Assembly (NCBI GenBank): GCA_022842465.1
Contig: JALHPN010000010.1
Coordinates: 1-64,000 of the forward strand
Reading direction: 5' to 3'
Origin: Polyangiaceae bacterium
Lineage (GTDB): Bacteria > Myxococcota_A > Polyangia > Polyangiales > Polyangiaceae
DNA: 64,000 bases
This document shows, one piece after another, positions 4,690-24,771 of the stretch. How positions within the stretch are numbered: position 1 is the stretch's first letter; each line of letters starts with the position of its first letter. The notes beneath the pieces were generated by a model that worked only from the letters and a program-made list of their open reading frames with translations, was not told where the DNA came from and did no database searches. A program made the position numbers and the translations under genes.

Positions 4690-5838
4690 ATGGAGCTCGA
4701 GATCGGGATCGTCTGTGGACGCTGTGAGGCCTTCTCGGCCCTCGGCGAGGCCGCGTGCACGTCCTGCGGTTCGGCGCTCACGCTCGGAGCGGCGCCGGCG
4801 GCGCCTGCGGGCATCGTGGCGGACGAGCCGATCTCGTCCGGTCCTGCGACGACCCGGACCCCCGCGGCCGGAACGACACCGTCCGCGCCGCCGCCGCCTT
4901 CCTCCCCGCCCCCGCCTTCGTCCTCGTCACGCCTCGTCCCCGAGAACGTCCCGGCGCCGTCCACCGCGTCGGGCGGGCCTCTGCGGTACGGGTCGACGAG
5001 CAGCCTCTACACGCCACCCAAAGCTGCGACCAAAGCCAAGTCGATCGAGGAGCTCATGGATCAAGCGAAGAACTTCGTCTGCCGTTCCTGCTCCACGGCC
5101 GTCCCGCTCGGCCACAAGTTCTGCGGCCGATGCGGCGCGGCGGTGCCGCCGGAGATCCTCCAGGCGCGGACGCAGTTCTTCGGGCAGCTCCAGGCGCCCG
5201 GCAAGGCGAAGCTGATCCTCATCCGTGGCGAGGGCGTCGAGGGGCTCAGCTACCAGCTGAACGCCGAGCAGCACGTCGTCGGACGGAACGGCCAGCTCGT
5301 CTTCCCCGACGACGTGTTCGTGAGCCCGAAGCACGCGAACTTCTTCTACCGGGAGGGCAAGCTCGTCGTGCGCGACGAGGGCTCGCTCAACGGCGTCTTC
5401 CTCCGGGTGCGCGGCGGAGTCGAGATCCAGCACGGGGACTTCTTCCTCGCCGGCGAGCAGCTCTTCCGCGTCGACGCGACGCCGAAGCTGAACGATCAGC
5501 CGGGGCCCGACGGTACGTTCTTCTACTCGTCGCCGAAGCACCAGAGCCCCTTCCGCATCGTGCAGATGCTCCAGGGCGGCGCGCCGGGCATGACGGTGTG
5601 CGCGCGCGGCTCGAGCCTCCAGATCGGCCGCGAGGGCGGCGACCTCAACTTCCCGAGCGACCTCTACATGAGCGCCTCGCACTGCCGCCTCGAGGAGGCC
5701 GGCGGGAAGCTCACGCTCACGGATCTCTCGAGCCGCAACGGCACGTACGTCCGCCTCATCGCGGAGCGCGAGCTCGAGCACGGCGACTACGTCTTCATCG
5801 GGCGGAAGCTGCTCCGCGTCGAGATCACCGCGGCCTGA
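4690..5838 (+). CDS. Protein with two zinc ribbons and two FHA domains
   Basis: The start is ATG 4690 (GTG 4687 is just upstream). An N-terminal zinc ribbon (CGRCEAF...CTSCGSAL) is followed by a Pro/Ser-rich linker (about 50-100) and a second ribbon (CRSCSTAV...FCGRCGAA, about 130-155). Two FHA domains follow: VVGRNGQLVFPDDVFVSPKH with SLNGVFLR, and QIGREGGDLNFPSDLYMSASH with SSRNGTYVR. FHA domains bind phosphothreonine peptides, so this is a likely adaptor for the Hanks-type Ser/Thr kinases that abound in such genomes. No enzymatic domain is seen. Its end overlaps the convergent regulator by 14 bp. Confidence 0.88.
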   Translation: MELEIGIVCGRCEAFSALGEAACTSCGSALTLGAAPAAPAGIVADEPISSGPATTRTPAAGTTPSAPPPPSSPPPPSSSSRLVPENVPAPSTASGGPLRYGSTSSLYTPPKAATKAKSIEELMDQAKNFVCRSCSTAVPLGHKFCGRCGAAVPPEILQARTQFFGQLQAPGKAKLILIRGEGVEGLSYQLNAEQHVVGRNGQLVFPDDVFVSPKHANFFYREGKLVVRDEGSLNGVFLRVRGGVEIQHGDFFLAGEQLFRVDATPKLNDQPGPDGTFFYSSPKHQSPFRIVQMLQGGAPGMTVCARGSSLQIGREGGDLNFPSDLYMSASHCRLEEAGGKLTLTDLSSRNGTYVRLIAERELEHGDYVFIGRKLLRVEITAA

Positions 5839-6421
5839 GCGTCTCGGCGACCGCGATCAGCATCTCCATCGGCACCGCGTCGAGCACCTGCTCGAGATCG
5901 ACCGGCCCGGCCGGCACGGGAAAGCGCGCGTAGACCTCGGCGAAGCGCTGGTACTTGCGGAGGAGCGTCGTGAGCTTGGCGCGGAGGGCCTCGGCCTCCG
6001 CGCCTCGCGCGTCCCCGAGCAGGCCGAGCGCGCGCTCCGAGAGCGACACCTTGTCGCTCACCACCTGCCGGAGCCGCGCGATGTACGCGCCGACGATCAC
6101 GTCGGGGTACTTCCCCCGAAGCGCGAACGCGTCGTGCCGCTTGCCGGTCGCGCGCGTGCGCTCGACGATTCCGGCCGCCTCGAGCGCGCGCAGGTTCGCG
6201 AACACGTTGCTCTTCGCGCGCCCGAGCTCCTCGGCGAGCTCGTCCATCGAGAGCGCGCGATCCGCGAGGTAGAGGGCGGCGACGACCTGGCCGCCGAGCC
6301 GCGTGATCCCGGGGAAGCTCGCCGCGATCTCGCGCCCGACGCCCTCCAGCATCGCCGCCCGCGCGCGGAGGACCGCGTCGCGATCGCGCGCGCTCTCCGC
6401 GGTCTTGGCGGGCTTCACCAT
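5825..6421 (-). CDS. GbsR/MarR-family winged-helix transcriptional regulator
   Basis: In the 198-residue product, residues ~45-110 form a winged helix with the recognition region LSMDELAEELGRAKSNVFANLRALEAAGIVER. A C-terminal helical region with FAEVYARFPVPAG resembles the GbsR branch of MarR proteins, which control compatible-solute or efflux genes in other bacteria. ATG 6421 is preferred over GTG 6439 because the extra six residues look non-conserved. It converges on the FHA gene with a 14-bp overlap. The targets are not evident; no osmolyte gene is adjacent. Confidence 0.82.
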   Translation of the reverse strand: MVKPAKTAESARDRDAVLRARAAMLEGVGREIAASFPGITRLGGQVVAALYLADRALSMDELAEELGRAKSNVFANLRALEAAGIVERTRATGKRHDAFALRGKYPDVIVGAYIARLRQVVSDKVSLSERALGLLGDARGAEAEALRAKLTTLLRKYQRFAEVYARFPVPAGPVDLEQVLDAVPMEMLIAVAETLRPR

Positions 6422-6564
6422 GAATGCGGCGAGTAGCACGCCCGAGGGCGAGGGTGGAAGCGGTCGGTCCGCCGGATCATCCGCGGAGGAGGGCAGCGAC
6501 GAGGACCGTCACTCGCCCTCCAGAAGATGCCTCGCCTCGAGATCACGCTCGCTCCAAGGACGCC

Positions 6565-6840
6565 GTGGGGGCGCTCCGACGCGACGAGGTCGACGTCGCG
6601 GTGAGGAGCGCCATCTTCTCGGACGAGATCGTGTTCCTCGTCTCACGAAGCCATGCGCTCGCGAGCTCCGCGTCGCTCACCGTGGACGACCTCCGGCGCG
6701 TGCCGTGGATCACGTCGACCCAGACGCCGGAGGCGGAGGCGCGATGGTTCCAGCGCCGCGTCTTCGGGCGCGCGCGACCACGGACGCCGCGCCTCGTCTC
6801 GGGCGGCGCGCCAGCGCGCCTCGATCGGGATCCTTGCGCT
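6565..6840 (+). pseudogene. LysR substrate-binding-domain remnant, copy 1 (internal deletion)
   Basis: Reading from about 6565, the frame gives GALRRDEVDVAVRSAIFSDE, IVFLVSRSHALA and SLTVDDLRRVPWITSTQT, typical of the effector-binding half of a LysR regulator. There is no helix-turn-helix upstream. Bases 6655-6779 match 13608-13732 almost exactly and bases 6782-6835 match 13954-14007, but the ~221 bp between those blocks in the second copy are missing here. After the junction the frame drifts into a nonsense tail. It is therefore a truncated, internally deleted duplicate. Confidence 0.8.
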
Positions 6841-6890
6841 CGCGGCGCGCCTCCCGGTGAGAGCTCGCGGCGCATCCTCCCCGGAGCGGC

Positions 6891-7187
6891 TCACTTCGGC
6901 GGGGCGTATAGGCACGTCCCCCAGTTGCAGTAGTAGTTGGTCCCAGGGCAGTCCCGGCTAGTCTCGCAAGGGATCTTGTCCGAGGGCGCCCGGTAGTCCA
7001 CGGGCGGATGCCGAGCTCGGTCCTCCTTTCTCCGTTCGTCGCGCTCCTTGGCTCTCTTGTCCTCTTGCTCCATCTGCCTGTCGCTGAGGGCGTGACCGTC
7101 TTCGCCGATCTCCTCCTCGGGCTCGGCGGTGCACGCCGCGGCGCAGGTCAGGGAAGCGAGGAGCAGGAAGATGTATCGAAGTTTCAT
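6891..7187 (-). CDS. Small lipoprotein, charged linker plus Cys-rich end
   Basis: The 98-residue product starts MKLRYIFLLLASLTCAAAC, a signal sequence with a probable lipobox Cys at residue 19. A very polar stretch (DRQMEQEDKRAKERDERRK) follows, then a C-terminal motif with four cysteines, CETSRDCPGTNYYC..GTC, which probably forms two disulfides. ATG 7187 was chosen because it opens the signal peptide and is preceded by a GGAGATCGCC-type purine run. The function is unknown; the ending resembles short extracellular Cys motifs seen in other myxobacterial lipoproteins. Confidence 0.75.
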   Translation of the reverse strand: MKLRYIFLLLASLTCAAACTAEPEEEIGEDGHALSDRQMEQEDKRAKERDERRKEDRARHPPVDYRAPSDKIPCETSRDCPGTNYYCNWGTCLYAPPK

Positions 7188-7578
7188 GGCGATCTCCGTG
7201 TGGGGGCTTGTGGTTGTGTTGCGTACACACGGAAAGCATGTGGAGTGCCAGCGAGGGACGCGGGCAGATTCGCGGAGCTTTGCGACCTGCCCTCGGTCGA
7301 ACGTCAACGGCGCGTTGACGCGCCACGCTGTGGTGACCACGACAAGGCGACAGTGAGCCCGGGCGCTCTCGAGGAGCGCGCGCTCGGACGTGGCGTACCG
7401 CGCCGACGTACGAAGGACGGCACGCACCGCCGTGGGCCGACTAGCTCGAATCCGTGCGCGCGACGGTGCTCGCGAGCCTCCTGGAGCGCCTGCCGGGGCT
7501 CGACATGGACGCTCTCGTCCGCGAGTTCGCGGACATGGTGCTCCGCGGGACGCGCTGCGCGCCTCGCCCGGGTTCCGG
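7188..7578. other. Intergenic, no convincing gene
   Basis: This 391-bp stretch lies between two minus-strand lipoprotein genes. A short plus-strand frame at 7454-7570 (VRATVLASLLERLPGLDMDALVREFADMVLRGT) looks helical and could be a coding remnant, but it has no convincing start context and runs into noise. The rest probably holds the promoter of the 6891-7187 gene. A less GC-rich patch at 7200-7240 is compatible with that. Confidence 0.4.
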
Positions 7579-8553
7579 TCACGGGTCGACGACGATGCCG
7601 CTGCCGACACGCCGAAGCTGGTGGCCGAACGCGGCGACGGCTCCGGGCTCCGGTACGATCACCGTTTCATTTGCGGACCTGACCCGATGGTGGTCCGTGC
7701 AGACGCACGTCGTCTTGCCGGTCACGCACATGGTCCCGCGGTCGTAGACGATGCGGAGGCCGCTCGGGAAGACCCAGACCCCGGGCGTGAGCGTCATGCC
7801 GAGGGTCGCTCTCTTCGCGAGGTCGACGTCCTGGCCACGCACGGTGATCGTGCTCAGGCGGGCATCCGCCTCCAGCTTCACCGAACGGATCGAGAGCCGG
7901 AAGTGATGAAGGGCGTCGTTCGTGGCGAAGTCGTGCGTAGCCGGCGCCGTCCCGTCGTACTGCCAGTAGTCGGTCGCATGTCCGTCGACCCTGGCGCGTA
8001 GGGAGAGGATGCGCTTGCCCGTCATCGCCATCGACCCGCCGTGGACGCCGACCCACTCGATCTGGAAGTCGCCGCCGACCAGGCGATCACCGAGAGACAT
8101 CGTCACATCCTGCCGACCTGCTTCGCTGGCGCGCGGCCGCCACGGCCGGATCCGCGCGGTGCCCGAGCCGAGGTCGCGGGTGAACATCCATCGGTCGTCG
8201 ATGAGCTGCGCGTCGCCTGCGTCGATGTACGAGGAGGACGACGACTCGCCCGGGCCGGGTGGCGACGTGAATGCGAAGTGCCCGTCTTCGCGCGTGAGGA
8301 CCGTGCCGTCGGGAAGGACGAGCGACCCTCCCGTCAGGACGTACGACTCCTCGGCGACGGACTCCTGCGGCGTCGCGGCGCCGTTCGTCTCGGCGCCCGC
8401 GCCAGGGGAAGTCGTCGTCGCGTCGACCGGAGGAGGCGCAGTCGTCCTGCATGCGGCGGCGCCGACGACGGCGAGCCAGGGGGCCAGCCGCCGGAGGGCC
8501 CGATACCGTCGACGACGAGGCATGCCTCCGAGGCTGTCCATCGATGTCCTCAT
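7579..8553 (-). CDS. Hypothetical lipoprotein
   Basis: The 324-residue protein has an Arg-rich N-terminus, a hydrophobic stretch and the lipobox-like end VVGAAAC near residue 35. A Thr/Pro/Gly/Ala-rich linker follows, then a predominantly beta domain with repeated short strands (LSLRARVDGHATDYWQYDG, FRLSIRSVKLEADARLSTI). A pair of cysteines sits in CVTGKTTCVC. No known family is recognised. A later start at the second ATG (MPRRRRYRA, 8523) is also possible and gives a more standard signal peptide. Confidence 0.65.
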   Translation of the reverse strand: MRTSMDSLGGMPRRRRYRALRRLAPWLAVVGAAACRTTAPPPVDATTTSPGAGAETNGAATPQESVAEESYVLTGGSLVLPDGTVLTREDGHFAFTSPPGPGESSSSSYIDAGDAQLIDDRWMFTRDLGSGTARIRPWRPRASEAGRQDVTMSLGDRLVGGDFQIEWVGVHGGSMAMTGKRILSLRARVDGHATDYWQYDGTAPATHDFATNDALHHFRLSIRSVKLEADARLSTITVRGQDVDLAKRATLGMTLTPGVWVFPSGLRIVYDRGTMCVTGKTTCVCTDHHRVRSANETVIVPEPGAVAAFGHQLRRVGSGIVVDP

Positions 8554-8785
8554 CCGTCGATCCTATCGCTCCATCGCTTGCCGTCAGAGCCGACGTCGGC
8601 GATCGATGGGCATCGCGTGGAGCGAGCCACGCTCCGCTGCTGTCGGTCGCCGGACAGACTGACGGACTCCCGCTTCCGGGGCCGCGTGTTCTTGCCAAGA
8701 TTGCAGGGAATAGGCGGGGAACGTCGTGAACTGCGAGGGAAACGGGGGCGCTTCGCGTGGCCTCACCCTTGCTCCTCACCTCCGC

Positions 8786-9085
8786 ATGACGAGCCGAGCG
8801 AAGGGTGCCGTGGTCGTGGTCGGTGGCAGCGGCGGCATGTCCGAGCGCTATCGCGAGGTCGTCGAGGCGAAGGGCCTCGAGCTCCGCCACTTCGAGAACC
8901 GTGTGCCGAACGGCACGCGGCGCATCCTCGGCAACGTGGCTGCCGTCATCGTGATGGTCGGGATGGTCTCGCACGCGCTCCGCGATCAAGCGAAGGCGCT
9001 CGTCGACGAAGACGCGCCGGTCGTGTACCTGCGGTCGGCGTCGGTCTCGGCGCTCCGCAGCGCGGTCGATGCGCTCCCGACGTGA
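8786..9085 (+). CDS. DUF2325 family protein
   Basis: The product is 99 residues: AVVVVGGSGGMSERYREVVE, then LELRHFENRV, VAAVIVMVGMVSHALRDQAK and APVVYLRS. This is the Rossmann-like pattern of DUF2325 proteins, in which a GG(S/G) loop is followed by a conserved polar patch. Members are small soluble proteins of unknown function, found alone or fused to other domains. ATG 8786 was chosen because the homologous region begins a few residues later; a longer frame exists from 8726. It stands alone between oppositely oriented lipoprotein genes. Confidence 0.75.
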   Translation: MTSRAKGAVVVVGGSGGMSERYREVVEAKGLELRHFENRVPNGTRRILGNVAAVIVMVGMVSHALRDQAKALVDEDAPVVYLRSASVSALRSAVDALPT

Positions 9086-9177
9086 CCGAAGCGGAGAACG
9101 CGATCGCGCTCGGCGGTGCCGCGACCTTGGTCGTCGAAGATCATCCTCTGCCGCGTCGACAGTCGGAACGAGCCGTC

Positions 9178-9879
9178 TCAGTCGAGCCGCTCGAGCCGGA
9201 CGTCGTCGACGAGGAAGCACGCGCCAGGCACCGCCGGCGCTGCCACGAAGACGTTGAACACGCCCTGCGCCTGATTCGCGGTGAGCTCGATCTGGAGGCG
9301 CACCCACTCGCCGTTCGCGGGGAGAACGATGAACGGCCCCTCGGCCTGCTGGTGCGTGACGAACGGAGCTGGCGTGACCGTGCGCAAATAGATCTGCGCG
9401 GTCGTGGGAGAGACGGAACCCGGCGCGGCCCGGACCCACGCCTCTGCGCGATATCGCGCGCCGGCAACCGGCGACAACGGGATCGTGTTGTCATCGAGCG
9501 TGAAGAAATCGGCGACGCCCTGCATGACGCAGACTCTGCACGATCGTGCCCCGGACCGCGCCGTCGTGCTCGACGTCGCGGTAGCCTGGTAGCCGTCCCA
9601 CGGGCTACATCCGACCTCGAACGAGCCTTGTGGATGGAGGTTCTGCGCTGCGGCGGCGCTGTCCTCGCCCGCGTCGACGGGGCCCCGGGGGCCGGCCTCG
9701 GAGGAGGGGGCCGCGCGCGAGGCGTCGGCGAGCGTCACGCCGTCGGGGTGCACGCCGGCGTCGACGACCATCTCCGCCGGGGGGCCGTCGGTCGCGAAGT
9801 CGCCGAGCGACGTGAAGAGGGAGCACGCCGGCACCGCGGCCACGGACGTCAGCACCAAGACGACGGTGGCCGGCCTCAC
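9178..9879 (-). CDS. Lipoprotein with carbohydrate-binding-like beta-sandwich
   Basis: GTG 9879 opens a signal peptide (VRPATVVLVLTSVAAVPAC) with lipobox Cys near residue 19. The ~60-residue linker is rich in Asp, Ala, Gly and Pro. The remaining ~150 residues resemble a CBM4/9-type beta-sandwich: NLHPQGSFEVGCSPWDGY, SGARSCRVC, YRAEAWVRAAPG, WVRLQIELTA, FLVDDVRLERLD. The last phrase is the classic final strand of that fold. A role in binding a glycan outside the cell is inference. The frame is open further upstream but without signal-peptide character. Confidence 0.72.
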   Translation of the reverse strand: MRPATVVLVLTSVAAVPACSLFTSLGDFATDGPPAEMVVDAGVHPDGVTLADASRAAPSSEAGPRGPVDAGEDSAAAAQNLHPQGSFEVGCSPWDGYQATATSSTTARSGARSCRVCVMQGVADFFTLDDNTIPLSPVAGARYRAEAWVRAAPGSVSPTTAQIYLRTVTPAPFVTHQQAEGPFIVLPANGEWVRLQIELTANQAQGVFNVFVAAPAVPGACFLVDDVRLERLD

Positions 9880-10261
9880 ACCATGGATCCTAGCAGCGTC
9901 TCGGCGCGGCGAAGGCCGTTGGTGCGAAACATCCCCTGTCGCGAGCACCTCTGCCCACCCTCCCGGCGCGCTCGGCGAGAAAGCAGGGGGCGCGGTGCGC
10001 ATCGTTTCGGGGGCTCCCTCGTCGCCTCGACGAGGAGTCGACGGGGTGCGAAGCGCTCGCAACGGATCTGAAGAACGAATCGAGTCGATCACGCCGAGAG
10101 CTTCATCCGCGAGCTCCTCGACACGAGCTGCAGCCTGATCGCGGAGTCGTGGCCGACGGAACACGGCGCCACGCCGTTCGCGAGCGCGCGGGGGAGTGGG
10201 GCTTTTCTCGACGGATCGCCAGCTTCCGGCCATGGCGCGGCGTTCGCACACCACCTCTGTC
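9880..10261. other. Intergenic between divergent lipoprotein genes
   Basis: The 382-bp gap separates two divergently read lipoprotein genes and presumably carries both promoters. A plus-strand frame around 10086-10240 (VDHAESFIRELLDTSCSLIAE...) has a protein-like stretch but no start or family match; it may be a remnant. Nothing else is recognisable. Confidence 0.4.
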
Positions 10262-10855
10262 ATGGACAGCTACCGACGGTCGAAGCTCGCTCTTCCGGCG
10301 CTCACGGCGCTCCTCTTCGGATGCCAACCCCCTAGCGCCAGCACGGACGTGACGACGACGGCCCAAGGCGACGCCCTCGTCCTCGAAGGCACCACCGACG
10401 AGGAGCAGCATTGGTACGGGAACGTGACGGTGAAGGACGCGCCCGCGGGGGAGTACCTTCTCTTCCAGGCGCGCGCGCGCCCGACGTCGCTCGCCGGCCT
10501 CGCGGGTCTCGACCTGTCGACCTGCTCGTACGCGAACCCCTGCGACGTGCCGAACCTGGGGAGGCTCGACGAGCGGGTGCAGCTCGACGAGCCCGGGCTC
10601 GTTCGGCTCCGCGGCGGCACCGACTACGGTGAAGACTCTCCCGGCCACTACTTCGTCTTCGTGCGACGCGGCCCAGGCGCGAAGCTGGGCCCGACGACGG
10701 TGTCCGCGACCGTGACGATCGAGGGCAATCCAGGATGCGGCGGGAGCAACCCCGACCCACCGAATGTCGCGACGAGCGCGCTCGACGGGGCGCCCCCCTT
10801 CGTCGCATCGCGCACGGCCGACGCCGCAGCAGACGACGCCGCGCCCGCTCCGTGA
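10262..10855 (+). CDS. Hypothetical lipoprotein
   Basis: The 197-residue product starts MDSYRRSKLALPALTALLFGC, a signal peptide ending in a lipobox. The mature part is a beta-rich domain (HWYGNVTVKDAPAGEYLLF, FVFVRRGPGAKLGPTTVSAT) with a cysteine pair near CSYANPC, followed by a low-complexity tail rich in Ala, Asp and Pro. No family is recognised. ATG 10262 was preferred to an upstream start because it begins the signal sequence directly. It converges with the gene ending at 10874. Confidence 0.68.
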   Translation: MDSYRRSKLALPALTALLFGCQPPSASTDVTTTAQGDALVLEGTTDEEQHWYGNVTVKDAPAGEYLLFQARARPTSLAGLAGLDLSTCSYANPCDVPNLGRLDERVQLDEPGLVRLRGGTDYGEDSPGHYFVFVRRGPGAKLGPTTVSATVTIEGNPGCGGSNPDPPNVATSALDGAPPFVASRTADAAADDAAPAP

Positions 10856-10873
10856 GGCGACTTCAGCGTTCGG

Positions 10874-11584
10874 TCAGCGACAAGAAGCGGCGTTCGTCGA
10901 GCCCGCGGCCTGGTCCGCGCAGTACGCACCGAGGTCGTCGCACGTCGCGGTCTTGATCTGGCCAGAGGGGCACGCGCCGCCACCGCCGTTCGTCCTGGTG
11001 CACATGCAGACCCCGGCGGCGGCGTCGCGGCAGCACACAGCGCTGCTCGTGGGGCACGAAGAGACGACGCGCGGGAGCGTTCCGAGGAACACGCTCCCGC
11101 TCGGTCCGCATCCGCACTGGGTGCCGGTCGCGCTCTGCCGGCACTCACGCGGGGCGCACGCGCACGAGGCCGCGCTCGCGTCGGGCCACCCACCCTCCGC
11201 GCAGCAGACGGAGCCCGACGCCTCGGGGCCGCAGGTGTCGACCTCGAGATCCGCGTACGTGGCGTCGTCCGCGGTGAGGTCGCGGTGCGTGCAGAAGCAG
11301 CCCGGGATGTTGCTCGACGGGAGGTTACGGTAGCAATGGAGCGTCGTGCCGCTGGACGGCGGCGTGGACGGCTCGCCAGACGGCTCGCCAGACGGCTCCG
11401 TGGCGCTCGACTGCGACCCGGGCTCACGCTGCGCGGTGCCGGTAGGGGTCGTCGTGCCCTCCCCCTCGCCACGCCCAGCCGTCGACGTGCCCGATCCGCC
11501 CACGCAAGCCACGACGAACGAGACGGCGACGCCGAGCACGCTGGCCGAGCGACAGGACGAGAGGTCGCGAGCTGAGAGGCGCAT
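10874..11584 (-). CDS. Cysteine-rich lipoprotein with EPSG repeats
   Basis: The 236-residue product has a signal peptide ending SFVVAC (lipobox), a Ser/Thr/Gly/Pro linker containing the tandem repeat SGEPSGEPS (encoded by repeated agacggctcgcc near 11370-11400), and a mature domain with about 18 cysteines. The pairs CFC, CC, CAC, CGC, CC and CMC suggest several small disulfide-bonded modules. No enzyme motif is seen. Such domains are common in secreted proteins of predatory and social bacteria, but the role here is unknown. Confidence 0.7.
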   Translation of the reverse strand: MRLSARDLSSCRSASVLGVAVSFVVACVGGSGTSTAGRGEGEGTTTPTGTAQREPGSQSSATEPSGEPSGEPSTPPSSGTTLHCYRNLPSSNIPGCFCTHRDLTADDATYADLEVDTCGPEASGSVCCAEGGWPDASAASCACAPRECRQSATGTQCGCGPSGSVFLGTLPRVVSSCPTSSAVCCRDAAAGVCMCTRTNGGGGACPSGQIKTATCDDLGAYCADQAAGSTNAASCR

Positions 11585-11645
11585 GGTCGTCTCTTACGCG
11601 CCGACTGTCGCGATCTCCCTGCGGGAACGACTCCGCACTCGGCGA

Positions 11646-11990
11646 TGCTCCTCACTATCGTTCGAGGCTGCCACCTTCGGCGAGGGCGGCGCGCTCTTCG
11701 TCGTGGGGACCAAGGACGACCGTCAGACGAAGCGCCAGCTCTTCGTGACCCGCTTCCGCGCGGACGGAACGCGCGACACGTCGTTCGGTGCGAACGGCAT
11801 CACGCAGACGACGTCCGACGGCGGCTTCGCCCACGTCACGCGCGCCGAGGTCGGTCTCGATGGCAAGCTCTGGATCCTCTCCATTGCGGCCGCCAAGTCG
11901 ACGATCGCGCGCCTGTCGCCGAACGGCTCCATCGACGTGGGCTCCGGGACGGTTCGGGCGAGACGGGGGATCGTTCGTCTTCGATCGCGC
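11646..11990 (+). pseudogene. Fragment of a delta-60-repeat (beta-propeller-like) protein
   Basis: In the frame through 11646-11990 the product reads FGEGGALFVVGTKDD, LFVTRFRADGTRDTSFGANG, GLDGKLWILSIA and IARLSPNGSIDVGSG. The FxxDGxxDxxFGxxG phrase is the hallmark of delta-60 repeats, which occur in long tandem arrays in extracellular proteins. Only about two repeats are present, with no start, signal peptide or stop in a sensible place, and the fragment abuts the convergent membrane-protein gene. It is therefore a remnant of a larger gene. Confidence 0.6.
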
Positions 11991-11999
11991 GGCATGCCT

Positions 12000-12890
12000 T
12001 CACGCCGGCGACGGCTTCGGGCTCCTGAGACGGATCGCGCGGAGGAGGAGGACGGCGAGCACGCACGCGAGCCCCACGCCCCACACGCCGAGGAACGGCA
12101 ACGTCGTGTGCGTGAGATAGGCGCTGCCGAGGAAGAGCACGGGGGCCCACCCGCTGCCCGTCACACGGACCGCGCCGACCGCGAACGCGCCACCGACGAG
12201 ACATTGGAGGAACCAGCCTGCGGTGTGCCAGGGGTAGACGACGGCGAAGGCGAGCGCGCCGACCACCTCGCCGACGCCGACGCGGAGGGCGGCGCCGACG
12301 CGGCCGGCGGCTCCGAGCACGAGAGCGAGCGTCGCGAACCAGAGGACGCCCACGGCGTGCGCGGGCGTGCCGACCTCGGACCAGAGCGGCGCGCAGCAAT
12401 GCCAGAGGGCCGAGAAGCAGCCGTAGGCGACCCCGAGGGCGGGGCCGACGCCGAGCGGAAGCGAGGCGCGGACGGACCTGCGGCGCTCCGTGAGGACGGC
12501 GAGACATGCCCCGCACGTGACCAGCGCGACGACGGCCCAGACCGACCACGGGACGCGCACGGAGCGGAGCGCGCCGTGTCGCCAGCCGAACGTCAGGGCG
12601 TTGCCTGCGACGAGGATGGCGAAGGGCGCGAGGAGGGCCCAGATCCGGTGCGGACTGGAGAGCACGGTTGCGCGCATCCGCGCCGCCGCGACGGAGAGGC
12701 CGAGCGCGCCGAGGAGGACGCCCACGAAGGCGATCGCACGCTGGCCTGCGGTCGTGTGCGTCGCCCCTCCGCTGCCGATGAGGACGTGGAGGATCTCGTC
12801 GAACGCGCTGACCGGCGCGAAGACGGCGAAGGCAGCGAAGGCGCATGCACCGAGGACGACGAGAGCGACGAGGACGAGACGGATCGGCAC
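12000..12890 (-). CDS. Polytopic membrane protein, unknown
   Basis: From GTG 12890 the product is 296 residues with seven to nine hydrophobic segments (LVLVALVVLGACAFAAFAVF, AIAFVGVLLGALGLSVAA, IWALLAPFAILVAGNAL, VWAVVALVTCGACLAVL and others) separated by Arg-rich loops. A pair HCC in WHCCAPLWSE and a His in VVYPWHTAGW lie inside or next to membrane segments. No transporter or protease signature is seen. The start is uncertain: a GTG four codons upstream would also work. It follows the PRC-barrel gene by 58 bp on the same strand, so the two may be cotranscribed. Confidence 0.65.
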   Translation of the reverse strand: MPIRLVLVALVVLGACAFAAFAVFAPVSAFDEILHVLIGSGGATHTTAGQRAIAFVGVLLGALGLSVAAARMRATVLSSPHRIWALLAPFAILVAGNALTFGWRHGALRSVRVPWSVWAVVALVTCGACLAVLTERRRSVRASLPLGVGPALGVAYGCFSALWHCCAPLWSEVGTPAHAVGVLWFATLALVLGAAGRVGAALRVGVGEVVGALAFAVVYPWHTAGWFLQCLVGGAFAVGAVRVTGSGWAPVLFLGSAYLTHTTLPFLGVWGVGLACVLAVLLLRAIRLRSPKPSPA

Positions 12891-12948
12891 GTGGCGCCGA
12901 ACCCGACGCGGGGCGGTTCTGTTCCCGAGCTCCGTCGCGACGCGAGGT

Positions 12949-13251
12949 TCACCGGATGCGCGCCGACTCGCTCCCACGATCCGAGAGGCGACGGAGCTCC
13001 TCCACGGCGACGCCCAGCACGACGGCATCGCCGATGGACTGCACCATCGCCATCGGGATCTCGAGCATGGCGGCGTGGAAGACGCTGCGGTCGACCCCGA
13101 TCCGATCGGCGACGTCGCTGCGGAGCTTCACCTCGAGCGACTCGAGGCGCAGCGAGTCGCTGTCGAAGAGGAGGAGGGCGATCTCGCCGACCGCGACTCC
13201 ATCGGACGCGATCACGGTTCGACTGCGGATGTTCTCATCGGAAAGTCGCAC
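12949..13251 (-). CDS. PRC-barrel-like small protein
   Basis: The 100-residue product reads TVIASDGVAVGEIALLLFDS, LRLESLEVKLRSDVADRIGV, then LEIPMAMVQSIGDAVVLGV. The SDG.xVG.I..LLxDxxxxxxxxLxV pattern is that of a PRC-barrel beta-domain, found in photosynthetic reaction centres, RimM and many small stand-alone proteins. GTG 13251 is chosen because it precedes the first conserved strand; the frame is open further up but reads as nonsense. Function unknown; it probably shares a transcript with the membrane protein downstream. Confidence 0.65.
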   Translation of the reverse strand: MRLSDENIRSRTVIASDGVAVGEIALLLFDSDSLRLESLEVKLRSDVADRIGVDRSVFHAAMLEIPMAMVQSIGDAVVLGVAVEELRRLSDRGSESARIR

Positions 13252-13503
13252 GGCTGGCCTCCTTGCACCGTCGCGCGCGACGGTGCCTCGGAGGAGTCCT
13301 TGCAACGACCGCGCTCGACGCGGTGGAGCGCCGATCGAGCCTGCGCCGTGCACGCCCCCTCCGATACGCGAGGGGTGCATCCTGCACCAGTGGGCGCGAG
13401 GACGACGAGGACCGAGCGGCTGGGGTGCGGACCGTCGGCGACCGTGCGCATCCGAACACGACGCGCGGGTGAGCTGATCCTGCACGGTCCGTGTGCCATC
13501 GTG

Positions 13504-13590
13504 ATGGCTGAGGTCGCCGACGATCATCCGGTCGTCCGCGCCGGGCTCCGTGCGCTCGTCGCATCGGACGACATCGTCGTCGTCGGCGAA
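13504..13590 (+). pseudogene. N-terminal fragment of a NarL/LuxR-type response regulator
   Basis: ATG 13504 opens a frame reading MAEVADDHPVVRAGLRALVA, then SDDIVVVGELQAA, an unmistakable first ~30 residues of a NarL-type receiver (DDHPVVRxGL, VVGE). The similarity stops at about 13590. The next 18 bases lead, in another frame, into the C-terminal half of a LysR regulator at 13608. The receiver core (phospho-Asp, Lys) and the DNA-binding domain are absent, so this is a dead 5' fragment at a recombination junction. Confidence 0.75.
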
Positions 13591-13607
13591 CTTCAGGCGG
13601 CGTCGAG

Positions 13608-13997
13608 GCGCTCGCGAGCCCCGCGTCGCTCACCGTGGACGACCTCCGGCGCGTGCCGTGGATCACGTCGACCCAGACGCCGGAGGCGGAGGCGCGATGG
13701 TTCCAGCGCCGCGTCTTCGGGCGCGCGCGACCGCGGGTCGAGGTCGTTCGCTTCCCGCTCACGGAGGCCATCGTCGACGCGGCGCGCGCCGGCATGGGCG
13801 TCGCGATCGTGTCGGAGTGGATGGCGAGCCCGCACGCGTCCGATCCGTCGCTCGTGGTGAAGCGACTGCGCGGCCGCACCCTCCACCGGCCGCGGCGCAT
13901 GGCGTACCGGCGCGACGTCGCCCCGAGCGCGCGCCTCCTCGCCACCGCGATCGAGGACGCCGCGCCTCGTCTCGGGCGGCGCGCCAGCGCACCTTGA
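13608..13997 (+). pseudogene. LysR C-terminal-half remnant, copy 2
   Basis: The frame gives SLTVDDLRRVPWITSTQT, FPLTEAIVDAARAGMGVAIV, SEWMASPHASDPSLVVKRL and RRMAYRRDVAPSARLLATAI, the second half of a LysR effector-binding domain ending at TGA near 13997. The helix-turn-helix and first subdomain are missing; upstream sequence is the out-of-frame receiver fragment. Its two ends (13608-13732 and 13954-14007) are duplicated at 6655-6835, where the middle is deleted. This copy keeps the uninterrupted 3' end and so resembles the ancestor more closely. Confidence 0.8.
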
Positions 13998-14238
13998 TCG
14001 GGATGCTCAGGAGGCCGGCGCCCGATTTCGGCGGCGTGAAGCTCGCCAGGAGCACGAGCGACAAGGGAGGAGGGCGAGTCCTGTCGCCGTCGCCTCGAGC
14101 CCTCTCGGAAGAGGGGCGGGAAGGCTCGAGTAGGTTCCGTCGTCACCGTTGGCGACTCATTTTCTCGTGGCCGCGTGATTCGGCTCGCTGGAGCTTCGGT
14201 TTGATGGTTCGGTGGGAAGATACACGTATGGAGGAGCC

Positions 14239-14409
14239 ATGCCCCAGGACCTGACAGCACTGACGGATGCCATCGAGAACGTGGAGAGCTCGATCGCCTC
14301 GGCCCTCTTCACCGCCGATCGTTGCAAGGTCGAAGCCGATCGCTGCAAGATCGAAGCCGATCGCTGCAGGATCGAAGCCGATCGCTGCAAGAGCGAGCCA
14401 CACTCGTAG
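14239..14409 (+). CDS. Candidate RiPP precursor peptide with four Cys heptads
   Basis: This 56-residue peptide is opened by ATG 14239 with a strong Shine-Dalgarno run GGAGGAG at 14230-14236. Residues 1-25 (MPQDLTALTDAIENVESSIA...) form a possible leader. Residues 26-53 are four 7-residue repeats, ADRCKVE, ADRCKIE, ADRCRIE, ADRCKSE, and the end is PHS. The only cysteines are the one in each repeat. YcaO starts 25 bp downstream and a SagB-type oxidase follows, a gene set that makes thiazol(in)es from Cys in other RiPPs; the substrate role is inference. The peptide also fits one continuous heptad register (L5, L8, I12, V15, I19, A22, A26, C29...C50), so it could instead be a small coiled coil. 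No Gly-Gly leader cleavage motif is seen. Confidence 0.7.
   Translation: MPQDLTALTDAIENVESSIASALFTADRCKVEADRCKIEADRCRIEADRCKSEPHS
14314..14397 (+). repeat. Four tandem 21-bp repeats inside the small peptide gene
   Basis: Units begin at 14314, 14335, 14356 and 14377 and share the core GCCGATCGCTGCAAGATCGA with a few substitutions; the last unit is the most diverged. The unit length of 7 codons keeps the frame, so copy number can change without breaking the peptide. Each unit adds exactly one Cys. Confidence 0.92.
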
Positions 14410-14434
14410 TCGCTATCGCGGGTCCGCCGCTCTC

Positions 14435-15667
14435 ATGAGCTCCGCTGCGCGAGCCATCTTGTCGCGGCTCTCGGAGAGCGGCCTGACCCATGAGCCGGTG
14501 GCGGCGCCGATCTTCGCAGACGAGCCGAAGGTGCCTGGCTTCTTCTGCATGCCGCGCGAGACGCACGAGCCCTTGGAGACGACGAGGAGCAGCGGCTTCG
14601 GCACGCATCGCTCTCCAGCGATCGCTCGGATCAAAGCTACGGCCGAGTGTCTCGAGGGCTTGTGCCTCTACAACCCGCCGGCCGTAGGGCTCGACGAAGG
14701 AAGGTTCGAGGACGCCGGCACCCAGACCGACCCCCTTCGATTCTTCGATCGGCGCTCGACGCTCGCCGAGAGCGCAGCCGAGGAGTGCCGCGCGAGCACG
14801 TTCCGCTGGTGGCGCGCCGAGAGACTCGGGGCGGGCCCGACGCTCATCCCCGCTCAGACGGTCTTCAACGCGCGCTTCCTCCTTCGAGAGTTCGCGCTTC
14901 GGGCGGAGCTGAGCAGCACGGGGGCAGCCCTTGGGGAGCGGGGGCGCGGACGCGCCCTCGAGAGCGGCCTGCTCGAGGTCATCGAACGCGACGCTCTCGT
15001 TCGCGTGTTCCATGGGCGGCGGCCGTTCACGCGAATCATCGACCTGCCAGCCGGCGTCGAGCAGCTCGTGGCGACCCTGAAGCGCTATCGCCTGGAGCCC
15101 CACGTCTTCGACGTCGCGAGCGAGCTCGATGTGCCGACGATCCTGGTGATCACGATCGATCGGACCGGCGCCGGCCCTGCCGTCTGCGCCGGAGCGGCGG
15201 CCGACTTCCGTGCGGCGAGAGCGATCGAGAAGGCTATCCTGGAGTCGATCCAGAATCGCGGCATGCTACGAATACGTCGTGCCACGGACGGAGCGGGCGA
15301 GAAGCTCGACGCGAGCGAGATTCGCTCTACGTCGATGCGCCAACGATTCTGGGCCGATCCCGATCGAATCGCCGATATCGAGCGCTGGTTCGAGCTCGCG
15401 AACACCAAACGATACTCTGATTCGACGTGGTCCCTCCTCGACGTCGCCGCGCTCACGCGCCAGCTGGAGAAGAGGGGCTTCGAGGTCTTCGTCGCCGACA
15501 TCACCTTGCCCGCCGTCGAGCGACAGGGCTTCGAGGTGCTGAAGGTCGTGTGTCCAGACCTGCTTCCGATGTACATGGACGAGCGCGCGCAAGTGAAACC
15601 CCGGCTCACGGATTCGGAGGCGAGCGAGGAGGCCGCGTGGCACTTGCCTACGCATCCCTTTGCCTGA
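14435..15667 (+). CDS. YcaO-family protein (candidate azoline-forming cyclodehydratase)
   Basis: The 410-residue protein shows YcaO core motifs: KATAECLEGLC (residues 68-77, the first Glu-rich ATP-binding motif), SGLLEVIERDAL (177-188) and AIEKAILESIQNRG (263-276, the ExxxQ motif). YcaO enzymes use ATP to activate a peptide amide so that Cys, Ser or Thr side chains cyclise to azolines. Two oddities stand out. The usual ExxER reads E71xxE74-G75, and the C-terminus is LPTHPFA, not the full PxPxP tail of many azoline-forming YcaOs. No E1/ocin-ThiF partner is adjacent. Start ATG 14435 lies 25 bp after the small peptide gene; the stop is 4 bp from the next ATG. Confidence 0.88.
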   Translation: MSSAARAILSRLSESGLTHEPVAAPIFADEPKVPGFFCMPRETHEPLETTRSSGFGTHRSPAIARIKATAECLEGLCLYNPPAVGLDEGRFEDAGTQTDPLRFFDRRSTLAESAAEECRASTFRWWRAERLGAGPTLIPAQTVFNARFLLREFALRAELSSTGAALGERGRGRALESGLLEVIERDALVRVFHGRRPFTRIIDLPAGVEQLVATLKRYRLEPHVFDVASELDVPTILVITIDRTGAGPAVCAGAAADFRAARAIEKAILESIQNRGMLRIRRATDGAGEKLDASEIRSTSMRQRFWADPDRIADIERWFELANTKRYSDSTWSLLDVAALTRQLEKRGFEVFVADITLPAVERQGFEVLKVVCPDLLPMYMDERAQVKPRLTDSEASEEAAWHLPTHPFA

Positions 15668-15671
15668 AGCG

Positions 15672-16391
15672 ATGACGCCTCTCCGACGGATTGCCCGATT
15701 CTACAACGCAGTGAAGTCACCCGGCTCGCACGTCTCGGCCACGCCGATGCTCCCGCGTGCGTCCCGGAAGGCGTATCCGCGATTTCCACGGATTCCGCTC
15801 CTTCGTGACGGGCTCTCGCAGGCGAGCTTCGCCGACCTCCTCGCCCGACGCGAGTCGGTGCGGAGCTTTTCCGGCGAACCGATCGCCTTTCGAGCGCTGA
15901 GTCGCGTTCTCTCGACGTTCCAAATCCTCGATGCGGAGCGCACTCCGGAGCGACGCACCTACCCGTCCGCCGGAGACCGCTTTCCGATCGAGCTCTACCT
16001 CCTTTCTTTCGCCGTCACGGACCTCGAGCCGCTCGGGCTCTATCACCTCAACATCGGCGAAGGAGCGCTCGAGTCGCTCTGGCCTCTTCAGACCGACACT
16101 CCGCCAGACTCCCTCGTCCCCGAGGGTTTCGTCGCCCCGGGCGCGTTGATCGTCTTGACGGCCATGCTGCAGCGATCAGCCGTCCGGTACGGCGTCAACG
16201 CCTATCCGCTCGTGCTCCTCGAGGCAGGCCACGTCGCGCAGAATCTGTTGGTCGGTGCGGTAGACGCAGGGCTCGGTGCCTGCCCCGTGGCAAGCCTCGA
16301 CGACGACGTCGTGACGCGCGCCTTCGACCTAGGAGCAGACGAAGTTCCGATCTACGCGGTCATGCTCGGCTCGCTCCCGCGCCCCACGTAG
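15672..16391 (+). CDS. SagB-type nitroreductase-fold dehydrogenase (azoline oxidase)
   Basis: The 239-residue protein has the FMN-binding motif RRESVRSFSGEPIAFRALSR (about 59-78), then TYPSAGDRFPIELYLLSF and LEAGHVAQNLLVGAVDAGLGA, the three signatures of SagB/McbC thiazoline-thiazole dehydrogenases. These FMN enzymes oxidise azolines made by YcaO to azoles. The N-terminus is short, so only the catalytic nitroreductase domain is present. ATG 15672 lies 4 bp after the YcaO stop; a TTG at 15660 would overlap it. The tight spacing argues for one operon and a shared substrate. Confidence 0.87.
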   Translation: MTPLRRIARFYNAVKSPGSHVSATPMLPRASRKAYPRFPRIPLLRDGLSQASFADLLARRESVRSFSGEPIAFRALSRVLSTFQILDAERTPERRTYPSAGDRFPIELYLLSFAVTDLEPLGLYHLNIGEGALESLWPLQTDTPPDSLVPEGFVAPGALIVLTAMLQRSAVRYGVNAYPLVLLEAGHVAQNLLVGAVDAGLGACPVASLDDDVVTRAFDLGADEVPIYAVMLGSLPRPT

Positions 16392-16472
16392 CCGCTCGGG
16401 CGTTCTGCCTTCACCTCGGATTCGCGCTTTGCCCGCTCGGGCGCACCGGCGTTGTCCTAGACTCGAAGGGCG

Positions 16473-18551
16473 ATGTCGAACGATCCGTCGCGCCAATTCG
16501 ACGTGCTCTTCGAGGCCGTCCCCATCGGCCCGGTCACGAGCAAGAACCGGTTCTATCAGACGCCGCACGGCAACGGCTGCGGGTTCCGCGACCCGAGCGC
16601 CATGATCGAGATGCGTCGCGTGAAGGCGGCGGGGGGCTGGGGTGTCGTGTGTACCGAGCAGACGGAGATACACCCGAGCTCGGACATGAGCCCGTTCATC
16701 GAGATGCGGGCGTGGGGCCCCGAGGATCGTCCAGTCCTCGGCAAGGTCGTCGAGGCGATCCACGAGCACGGAGCGCTCGCGGCGATCGAGCTTTCCCACA
16801 GCGGGCTCAACACCGCCAACCTGTCGACGCGACTCGAGCCGCTGGGGCCGGCTCACCTGCCCGTGACCACGGAGGATCTCGAGCCCATTCAAGCGCGGGC
16901 GATGACCCTCCGCGACATTCGCCATCTGCGTCAGTGGCAACGCCGCGCGGCGCTCGACGCGAGGGACGTCGGGTTCGACCTCGTCTACGTCTACGCGGGG
17001 CTCTTCCTGAGCCTGCCGCATCAGTTCCTCTCGCGCCGTTACAACACGCGCTCGGACGAGTACGGCGGCAGCCTCGCCAATCGTGCACGCCTTCTATGCG
17101 AGCTGGTGGAAGAGACCAAAGCTGCCGTCGGTGACCGCTGCGCGGTGCCGGTGAGGATCACGCTCGACGAGCACCTCGGGCCCGACATGGACACGCTCGA
17201 AGAGCTGTTCGACGTCATCGGGCGACTACCGGATCTCTTCGACGTCGTCATCGGTGGAATGAACAGCGGCAGCGGCTCCGCCCGATTCGAGCAAGACGAC
17301 CACGGGCGGAACGAAGCCATCCTTCGGCGCGTCAAGGCTTGCACCCCGGCTCCGGTGGTCAGCGTCGGGTTTGTCCGGTCGCCGCCCGAGATGGCACGCC
17401 TGATTCGCGACGGCGTCGTGGACTTCATCGGCGCGGCACGCCCTTCGATCGCCGACCCTTTCTTGCCGCGGAAGATCGAGAGCGGTCGTTCTTCCGAGAT
17501 CCGGCCATGCATAGCCTGCAACATCTGCGTGGCTTCCGACTACTCGTCGGCCCCGGTCCGCTGCACGCAGAATCCGACGTTCTCCGAGGAGTGGCGTAGG
17601 GGCTGGCACCCCGAAGAGGTGCCGAGAAGACACGCGGAGATGACGCTCGCGGTCGTCGGCGCGGGGCCCGCGGGGATGGAGTGCGCCCGCGTGCTCGGGC
17701 GACGGGGCTACGACGTTCGTCTCTACGAGGCGTCGACGGAGCTCGGTGGCCGAGTCGCGAAGGAAGCGCTCCTCCCCGGGCTCCAGCGATGGATCGCGGT
17801 GAGGGACTACCGCGCTGCGGAGTTCGCGCGGCTCGGCAACGTCGAAGTACGGCGCGCGTCACGCGTCTCGGCCGAGTCGCTGCTCACCGAGCCATCGGCA
17901 AACGGTCGCCCACGTCACATCGTCATCGCGACGGGGGCGCGTTGGCGTCGCGACGGCGTGGGACGCCACCGCGATCGCCCGTTGACCGTCGGCGCTGGGG
18001 CCAGGATCTTGACCCCGGACGACCTACCCGTCGTATCCCCACTCCTGGGGCGCGTGCTGATCTACGACGATGATCACTACTACCTGGGCAGTGTTCTGGC
18101 GGAGGTGCTCGCGAGGACGGCCGCGAGCGTCACCTACGTGACGCCGGTCGCCGAGGTAGCCGCCTGGACCCACCGCACGATGGAGCAGCGGGAAACGCAA
18201 CGGCGCCTGCTCGACCTCGGCGTCCACATCGTACCGCACCGCATCCTCTCGAGAGTCGATGCGGGGGGGGCCGAGCTCCAGTGCATCTTCACGGGGCGCA
18301 TCTCGGAAATGGATCAAGACAGCGTCGTGCTGGTGACGGCGCGGCTCCCCGAGGATGCGCTTGCCGCGGAGCTCGACCGCGAACGCGACCGTTGGTCCGA
18401 CGCGGGCGTCCACGGCGTGACGGTCATCGGTGATGCGAGGGCCCCTGGCCAGATCGTCCACGCGGTGTTCTCCGGCCACGCGATGGCCCGGACGTTCCCC
18501 GATCACGACGGAGCGTTGGACCACTTCGAGCGCCGGGAGATGACGCCGTAG
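16473..18551 (+). CDS. Trimethylamine-dehydrogenase-like flavo/iron-sulfur oxidoreductase
   Basis: The 692-residue protein has an Old-Yellow-type FMN barrel (about 1-340), then the 4Fe-4S motif CIACNICVAS...C (C346, C349, C352, C364) followed by TQNPTFSEEWRRGWHPEE, and a C-terminal nucleotide-binding domain starting LAVVGAGPAGMECARVLGRRG. It aligns well with trimethylamine and dimethylamine dehydrogenases (RPSIADPFLP). From memory of that family, the cysteinyl-FMN Cys30 is Gly33 here, Tyr60 is Gln as in dimethylamine dehydrogenase, and the active-site His172 is not conserved. The substrate is thus probably not a simple methylamine. It follows SagB by 81 bp; a role as an extra redox tailoring enzyme is inference. 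Confidence 0.85.
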   Translation: MSNDPSRQFDVLFEAVPIGPVTSKNRFYQTPHGNGCGFRDPSAMIEMRRVKAAGGWGVVCTEQTEIHPSSDMSPFIEMRAWGPEDRPVLGKVVEAIHEHGALAAIELSHSGLNTANLSTRLEPLGPAHLPVTTEDLEPIQARAMTLRDIRHLRQWQRRAALDARDVGFDLVYVYAGLFLSLPHQFLSRRYNTRSDEYGGSLANRARLLCELVEETKAAVGDRCAVPVRITLDEHLGPDMDTLEELFDVIGRLPDLFDVVIGGMNSGSGSARFEQDDHGRNEAILRRVKACTPAPVVSVGFVRSPPEMARLIRDGVVDFIGAARPSIADPFLPRKIESGRSSEIRPCIACNICVASDYSSAPVRCTQNPTFSEEWRRGWHPEEVPRRHAEMTLAVVGAGPAGMECARVLGRRGYDVRLYEASTELGGRVAKEALLPGLQRWIAVRDYRAAEFARLGNVEVRRASRVSAESLLTEPSANGRPRHIVIATGARWRRDGVGRHRDRPLTVGAGARILTPDDLPVVSPLLGRVLIYDDDHYYLGSVLAEVLARTAASVTYVTPVAEVAAWTHRTMEQRETQRRLLDLGVHIVPHRILSRVDAGGAELQCIFTGRISEMDQDSVVLVTARLPEDALAAELDRERDRWSDAGVHGVTVIGDARAPGQIVHAVFSGHAMARTFPDHDGALDHFERREMTP

Positions 18552-23900: not shown

Positions 23901-24428
23901 CTACGGCTCTGGCGGAGCTGCGAGCGCGCTCAGGGCCGCGCGAACGAACGCCTCGAACGCGTCGAGCGCGACGTTCACGGGTCCCTCCGTTCGGACGAGC
24001 CGCGCGAGCTCGTTCTCGAGGTGGCCCGGATCGAACGTCACGGCGTACGCGTGCCGAAAGAAGTGGCGAAAGGCGAGGAGGGCGGCGAGATCGGTGACCA
24101 GGGAGATGTCGACGACGGCGGGCCGCGTTCCTGGGATCTCGGCCGCCATCTGTGCAAGGAGCTCGCGGTGCCAGCGGTCGCCTCGCGGGACGTCGCCGTC
24201 GAGCTCCCGCGCGATGCGCTCGAAGATCGTCTCGACGCCGGTGTACCACCCGTGCAGCGCCACCGCCGCGAGCGCGAGGGCGCCGGCGTCCGATGGTTGT
24301 GCCCCCATCCGGCGCTTCGCTTCGTGAGCATCGGCCATGCGCTTCGCGAGCCCGCGGCGGTCCTCGTCGACCTCGACGAGGAGCCGGGCCAGCATCGCGG
24401 CGGATGCGCGGGACTCAGCCGACATCAT
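23901..24428 (-). CDS. hepT: HEPN-domain toxin HepT
   Basis: The 175-residue all-helical protein carries the HEPN active-site motif RHFFRHAY (R121, H126, Y128; RX4HXY), the signature of HepT ribonuclease toxins. The Tyr is the residue that MntA-type partners modify with AMP groups in characterised systems. ATG 24428 or 24425 (adjacent codons) overlaps the mntA stop by 14 or 11 bp, so translation should be coupled. The whole region is longer at the N-terminus than the minimal HepT of ~120-140 residues, with an extra charged helix. Toxicity is expected from the family and not shown here. Confidence 0.85.
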   Translation of the reverse strand: MMSAESRASAAMLARLLVEVDEDRRGLAKRMADAHEAKRRMGAQPSDAGALALAAVALHGWYTGVETIFERIARELDGDVPRGDRWHRELLAQMAAEIPGTRPAVVDISLVTDLAALLAFRHFFRHAYAVTFDPGHLENELARLVRTEGPVNVALDAFEAFVRAALSALAAPPEP

Positions 24429-24771
24429 GGCCCTCGGCGAGGACCCGCGCCTGAAACGCGGGTGGCAGCTCCTCGAGCAGCAAGAGATCGACGGAGCGCC
24501 CGGTCGCCTCGCCGAGCCGGTCGGCGAGCGCGATCCGGTCAGCGTCCGCGAGCCCTTCGACCACGAGATCGACATCGCTCCGAGGCCCGAACCCGCCCCA
24601 CGCGAGCGAGCCGATGAGCCAGGCGCGTCCGAAGCGGAGCTCGCCACGTAGTCCGGTCACTGCCCTGGTCACAGCGTCGATACAGCGGTCCCGCTCGGCA
24701 CGGTCGCGCGCCAGATCCGCTCCGGCACGCCGGAGCAGCGTGTGCGCGAGATCGAGAGGGGACACGGCCAT
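24415..24771 (-). CDS. mntA: MNT-domain antitoxin MntA (nucleotidyltransferase)
   Basis: The 118-residue protein has the minimal nucleotidyltransferase signature GSLAWGGFGPRSDVDL, which fits GSX10DXD exactly (G54, S55, D66, D68). Antitoxins of this family neutralise HepT by adding AMP to its active-site Tyr. The upstream-most residues (MAVSPLDLAHTLLRRAGADL) form a helix. ATG 24771 was chosen as it begins this helix; the open frame upstream is not protein-like. It is the first gene of the pair, with the toxin overlapping its end, the usual order for this family. Confidence 0.87.
   Translation of the reverse strand: MAVSPLDLAHTLLRRAGADLARDRAERDRCIDAVTRAVTGLRGELRFGRAWLIGSLAWGGFGPRSDVDLVVEGLADADRIALADRLGEATGRSVDLLLLEELPPAFQARVLAEGHDVG

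Follow-up and report, generated by a model that had tools for sequence, protein, structure and literature searches.

Most YcaO enzymes that form azolines depend on an E1-like protein, which grips the leader of the substrate peptide (PMC6511847 and PMC4603692); in clusters for thiazole/oxazole-modified microcins (TOMMs), SagB-type enzymes serve as the azoline oxidases (PMC4603692). Both E1-independent YcaOs and archaeal TOMMs are already known in print; among the latter, the cyclodehydratases of the haloazolisins are fusions whose C domain is hardly recognisable, and the thermoacidophisins, reportedly transferred between archaea and bacteria, have discrete C and D proteins (PMC4603692). YcaO-related ribosomally synthesized and post-translationally modified peptides (RiPPs) are mentioned across archaea, DPANN included (PMC12144867), and YcaO loci of the candidate phyla radiation have been interpreted as thioamidation loci (PMC12153355). 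Here we analyse a locus of a Polyangiaceae bacterium, contained in a 64,000-nucleotide stretch (the window; assembly GCA_022842465.1, contig JALHPN010000010.1), in which the gene of a cysteine-repeat peptide is followed by genes for a YcaO, a SagB-type dehydrogenase and a large flavoprotein. By sequence comparison it is an E1-less YcaO-SagB peptide locus of DPANN type, which we interpret as azole-forming (TOMM-like), with a heptad core that has no parallel in the searches made. No description of such a DPANN lineage or of a Cys heptad core was found in the literature searched.

We read the locus as a peptide-YcaO-SagB set of DPANN-archaeal kinship that is predicted to form thiazoles from the repeat cysteines without an E1-like docking partner, and place the probability of this reading at about 50%. 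With canonical TOMMs and linear azol(in)e peptides of the microcin B17 and streptolysin S type it has in common a YcaO domain and an adjoining SagB-type dehydrogenase, but it differs in the missing E1-like (C protein) partner, the charged heptad core and scores below the NCBIfam cut-offs. The described E1-independent YcaO systems likewise have a YcaO without E1-like partner, whereas their precursors and neighbours, as far as given in PMC4603692, are others; Pfam scans of the neighbouring frames revealed no second YcaO, methyltransferase or TfuA-like gene beside the window set. Haloazolisins and thermoacidophisins resemble it as archaeal azole-peptide loci (PMC4603692), but no E1-like match was obtained in the present lineage. 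In the thiovarsolins imperfect repeats serve as repeating cores and the YcaO also works without an E1-like partner, but TfuA is required, thioamides are made and the repeated motif is APR instead of a Cys heptad (PMC6511847).

The YcaO-SagB pair and its archaeal relatives

The four genes lie on the plus strand, separated by 25, 4 and 81 base pairs (bp) in order, and all four reading frames are intact; the order, strand, coordinates and gaps given in the original prediction, which had been made from the sequence alone, were exact on recheck. The candidate precursor gene (14239..14409, 56 residues) has the ribosome binding site GGAGGAG (14230..14236, plus strand) directly before its ATG, in agreement with the good site claimed for it. 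The YcaO (14435..15667, 410 residues) contains the Pfam domain PF02624 (E 2.4e-38), and the SagB-type flavin mononucleotide (FMN) dehydrogenase (15672..16391, 239 residues), which starts 4 bp downstream, belongs to the Nitroreductase family PF00881 (E 2e-16). A longer YcaO frame (14267-15667) was ruled out because the relatives begin at the position of the ATG at 14435.

Protein and contig searches gave relatives of the YcaO at 32-41% identity from Woesearchaeota and Aenigmatarchaeota and among metagenome proteins, and a profile search added weaker ones from Pacearchaeota, one Heimdallarchaeaceae and some Patescibacteria and other groups. A first scan of genome contigs with the window YcaO as lone query yielded no relatives; the contig search with alignment A1 listed 80 loci of at least 312 confirmed YcaO relatives. 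In a maximum-likelihood tree the window YcaO falls into a clade of 14 rows (support 100/100) made up of the window, L006-L009, L120 and eight metagenome proteins (L010 was left out, its frame being broken in its record); those of its relatives there that carry a name are DPANN archaea. Within it the window YcaO adjoins P0012 and P0008 (support 93/87 and 93/99, not starred), its branch is long (0.99) and its composition was flagged. The YcaOs from the window's own genus, family and class fall outside this clade. Judged from these comparisons, the YcaO and SagB of the window belong to a DPANN-archaeal lineage.

Ten archaeal loci from the window clade and the next clade (L006-L010 and L116-L120) were compared. 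In eight of them a SagB gene lies directly 3' of the YcaO on the same strand, at -4 to +8 bp, and in nine a small same-strand open reading frame (ORF) bearing the motif I[ED][NDGSA][AV] is found just upstream of the YcaO, overlapping the longest YcaO frame in L118 and L119; in L120, unlike the other nine, the precursor candidate is downstream. L006, L007 and L117 have one further small ORF there, without the motif. In L006 the peptide gene is at 5328-5543, the YcaO at 5567-6799 and the SagB at 6802-7536. The expectation that related genomes would keep a small gene beside the YcaO therefore stands for the archaeal loci, while the nearest YcaOs turned out not to come from genomes related to the bacterium.

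The absence of an E1-like partner, also part of the earlier claim, was borne out at a wider scale: an E1-like profile had no match in the window, and in the 9.57-Mb genome the best TIGR03882 scores (24.2 and 22.2 bits) are below the cut-off of 36.9. None of the ten archaeal loci gave an E1-like match, compared with 10 of 24 other YcaO loci, three of these being profile seeds; since the profile was built on only three sequences (L090, L093 and L122), distant E1-like forms may escape it. Elsewhere in the genome a second YcaO-family match, above cut-off (52.2 bits), is present on contig C76, and in phmmer searches none of the three cluster enzymes had a match in its surroundings.

The repeat peptide and its leader

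The peptide has the sequence MPQDLTALTDAIENVESSIASALFTADRCKVEADRCKIEADRCRIEADRCKSEPHS. Its second half is encoded by an in-frame 21-bp tandem repeat (14314..14396, plus strand; 4.0 copies, 91% matches) that specifies (E/T)AD-R-C-(K/R) units with Cys29, Cys36, Cys43 and Cys50, and its score of 138 exceeds those of all other tandem repeats in the window (29 rows in total). A degenerate two-unit pattern of the repeat gave 3 matches versus 0 in 100 shuffles. The units differ in CGT/CGC, AAG/AGG, GTC/ATC and one ATC/AGC codon, that is, by synonymous or conservative changes with the single exception of Ile/Ser.

Among about 5.8 billion proteins the peptide matched nothing but itself, at the sensitivity of a word-based search; the repeat pattern did not occur in viral contigs, nor was a second Cys heptad repeat encountered in any search made. 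The relatives have not kept the 7-residue repeat, and the cores of their precursors are rich in Cys, Ser and Gly. Ser and Gly predominate in the cores of L008, L009 and L120, where Cys is scarce or absent, and these precursor candidates would therefore yield oxazoles and not thiazoles.

What the window peptide may share with the archaeal precursor candidates is the leader. The motif occurs in 12 of the 456 ORFs of 40-110 residues across the ten archaeal loci, precursor candidates included, a count that is only descriptive because the motif was derived from those same peptides. The window is an independent case: the peptide contains IENV (14272..14283, plus strand), and 4 of 193 window ORFs carry the motif, the peptide among them. 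With a profile of the ten leaders the score of the peptide was reached by 62 of 20,000 shuffles and ranked first against 245 other window ORFs; with the six nearest leaders these values were 495 of 20,000 and rank 3. Because such scores are modest, a shared leader is likely and not certain. Altogether, the window agrees with the E1-less DPANN YcaO-SagB loci, as the lineage is defined here, in clade membership, peptide-YcaO-SagB order and leader motif, and differs from them in lacking a Cys/Ser/Gly-rich core and the Arg of the YcaO ExxER motif.

The flavoprotein and the origin of the set

The fourth gene (16473..18551, plus strand), whose membership in the locus is uncertain, encodes a flavoprotein of 692 residues with Oxidored_FMN (E 1.1e-48) and Pyr_redox_2 domains, whose similarity to histamine dehydrogenase spans the entire sequence (E 8.3e-204). 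As in the histamine/trimethylamine dehydrogenases, it has an FMN barrel, a second nucleotide-binding domain and the 4Fe-4S motif CxxCxxC...C (CIACNICVASDYSSAPVRC, which lines up with this motif in 3k30 and 6de6), but it departs from them at other positions: Gly33 stands at the place of a Cys of histamine dehydrogenase, Leu177 replaces the His that follows the conserved Tyr174, and the segment MNSGSGSARF contains no acidic residue. We take these positions, by analogy with trimethylamine dehydrogenase, to be the flavin-linking Cys and the catalytic Tyr-His-Asp. Loss of the Cys, His and acidic positions disfavours ordinary amine dehydrogenation, and the substrate is probably something other than a small amine.

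The idea that this enzyme supplies an extra redox step to the peptide remains a guess, since scans of other YcaO loci gave no homologue (89 loci, with only the window's own copies, and further sets of 5 and 12, with none; several of the loci are short). We give about even odds to the contrary view that the flavoprotein is an unrelated neighbour oxidising a small molecule and that the functional unit comprises the first three genes, an arrangement compatible with thiazole formation by these. The 81-bp gap, the strength of the full-length histamine dehydrogenase match and the missing homologues at other YcaO loci speak for such a neighbour, whereas the enzyme is tied to the locus by its position on the same strand, its similarly low GC content (0.68, versus 0.66-0.67 for the other genes) and the absence of homologues at E <= 1e-100 from 57 related genomes; the changed residues, if their roles are as assumed, also argue against ordinary small-amine oxidation.

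Relatives of the YcaO are rare in the surroundings of the host. Among 96 genomes near the window's own, 3 have one at E <= 1e-10, own genome counted; the own genome is the only one of 377 in the phylum at 1e-50, and at 1e-40 there are 4 among 317 genomes of the class, own genome counted, the others being far weaker. The corresponding figures are 6 of 371 and 6 of 156 for the phyla of the Woesearchaeota locus L006 and the Aenigmatarchaeota locus L007 (both at 1e-40), and 6 of 286 for the phylum of the Patescibacteria locus L012 (at 1e-60). A plasmid search returned two partial haloarchaeal matches covering 22% of the query, and viral contigs contained no YcaO relative. The GC content is 0.672 in the four-gene set and 0.712 in the window as a whole; among 120 overlapping stretches of the same size, 1 is equally low or lower.

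Vertical descent from L090, L091 and L093, the YcaO loci of genomes in the host's family, genus and class, was rejected because these have E1-like matches and occupy other positions in the tree. Horizontal gain can only be inferred, since a search for an empty site in the same genus, with the downstream DNA as query, gave short or paralogous matches and no clean empty site; the set was probably gained in this way, from a donor that need not be an archaeon.

Some neighbouring and related loci deserve mention. Upstream of the set, 13500-13997 (plus strand) is gene debris, by eye the beginning of a response regulator, truncated, with a fragment of a LysR substrate domain behind it (PF03466, profile positions 99-197 of 209); the frame 11346-13472 (plus strand) has a weak match to the delta-60 repeat TIGR02608 (25.5 bits, under the cut-off of 76.5) and is possibly a remnant, and 23901-24647 (minus strand) encodes a HepT-like_2 domain (PF20797, E 2.6e-29), possibly half of a pair of toxin-antitoxin type. 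In the same-class genome of L093, positions 4871-11016 hold a classic TOMM set of tandem candidate precursors with CACTTSCNCTSCSC-type cores, two YcaOs, a SagB and an E1-like gene. The Patescibacteria loci L123, L124 and L012 encode small Cys/Pro- or Cys/Gly-rich peptides, a YcaO and a SagB, with no E1-like match, and an M16 peptidase is present in L012.

Predicted chemistry and its alternatives

A number of observations weigh against thiazole formation. The YcaO has Gly75 where 57 of 57 relatives compared (P0005-P0013 and P0033-P0080, a part of those listed) have the Arg of the ExxER motif, and eight more columns conserved at >=90% are also changed; its score against the SagD model TIGR03604 (127.6 bits) misses the cut-off of 219.25. 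The SagB-type enzyme, at 75.7 bits, is just under the TIGR03605 cut-off of 78.4, and contains Arg-Tyr in place of the Lys-Tyr found in 32 of 33 homologues, a motif that is presumably catalytic, as in McbC. The core of the peptide is charged, unlike the Cys/Ser/Gly-rich cores of the archaeal relatives, residues 3-52 of the unmodified peptide were modelled as one helix (single-sequence prediction, best of five models, predicted local distance difference test scores 56-91), and with the six-leader profile the peptide is outscored by two unrelated ORFs of the window. In addition, the cluster contains no DUF2268 protease, a type of Zn-protease that is present in L006, L010 and L120, the three loci tested; one is encoded on contig C127 of the genome (51.5 bits).

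Because of the changed YcaO and SagB residues, the missed cut-offs and the helical model, two other readings retain some weight. One, which we consider unlikely, sees in the locus the relic of an archaeal-type azole-peptide set that is no longer active and whose repeat is drifting. The substitutions in both enzymes, the long YcaO branch and the upstream debris would fit such a decay, but the four frames are open, the YcaO keeps E71, E74, E181, E184, R185, E270, R275 and R279, and the repeat units have diverged almost entirely without altering the character of their residues. Moreover, neither of the two most conspicuous replacements is unique, as the SagB of L092 also has Arg-Tyr and L017, in the wider set, is likewise without the YcaO Arg.

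The second reading, for which the chances are small, assumes that the YcaO performs other chemistry on the peptide (thioamide or amidine formation, or peptide-bond cleavage) and that the SagB-type enzyme has another substrate to oxidise, with no thiazole being made. Methyl-coenzyme M reductase is thioamidated by archaeal YcaOs that work without partners (PMC6511847), and in structure comparison the window YcaO matched the YcaO fold, with Methanocaldococcus and Methanopyrus YcaOs among the best matches; no fold of the RiPP recognition element type was among these matches, and one may still be present. The best sequence match of the YcaO profile in the PDB is MusD, whose entry title names a peptidase activity. 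On the other side are the SagB-type enzymes, which PMC4603692 describes as TOMM azoline oxidases and which adjoin the YcaO in most of the archaeal relatives, the abundance of Cys and Ser in the peptide cores of these relatives, and the lack of a TfuA-type gene beside the set in the Pfam scans of neighbouring frames.

If thiazoles are indeed formed, the leader with IENV would be recognised by the YcaO itself, which with ATP would cyclise the cysteine of each Asp-Arg-Cys-Lys to a thiazoline (-18 Da), to be oxidised to thiazole by the FMN enzyme of SagB type (-2 Da). A peptidase encoded elsewhere would then free either a single peptide bearing as many as four rings or separate heptad units, as in the repeat-core thiovarsolins, and the flavoprotein may contribute a later oxidation; the set itself would have been acquired horizontally. 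A more far-reaching version, tentative and in our opinion rather doubtful, is that a minimal E1-free thiazole-peptide pathway native to DPANN archaea crossed into the bacterium with a leader read by the YcaO alone since the archaeal ancestor, and there evolved a modular four-unit heptad core, adjustable by recombination, together with an amine-dehydrogenase flavoprotein repurposed to finish the units.

Should thiazole formation by this set hold true, the peptide-YcaO-SagB unit would be among the smallest natural azole-forming kits and would offer a direct test of how a YcaO alone binds its substrate. Azole peptides would then also be products of some of the smallest archaea, and such a kit would be able to enter another kind of genome and acquire a modular repeat core.

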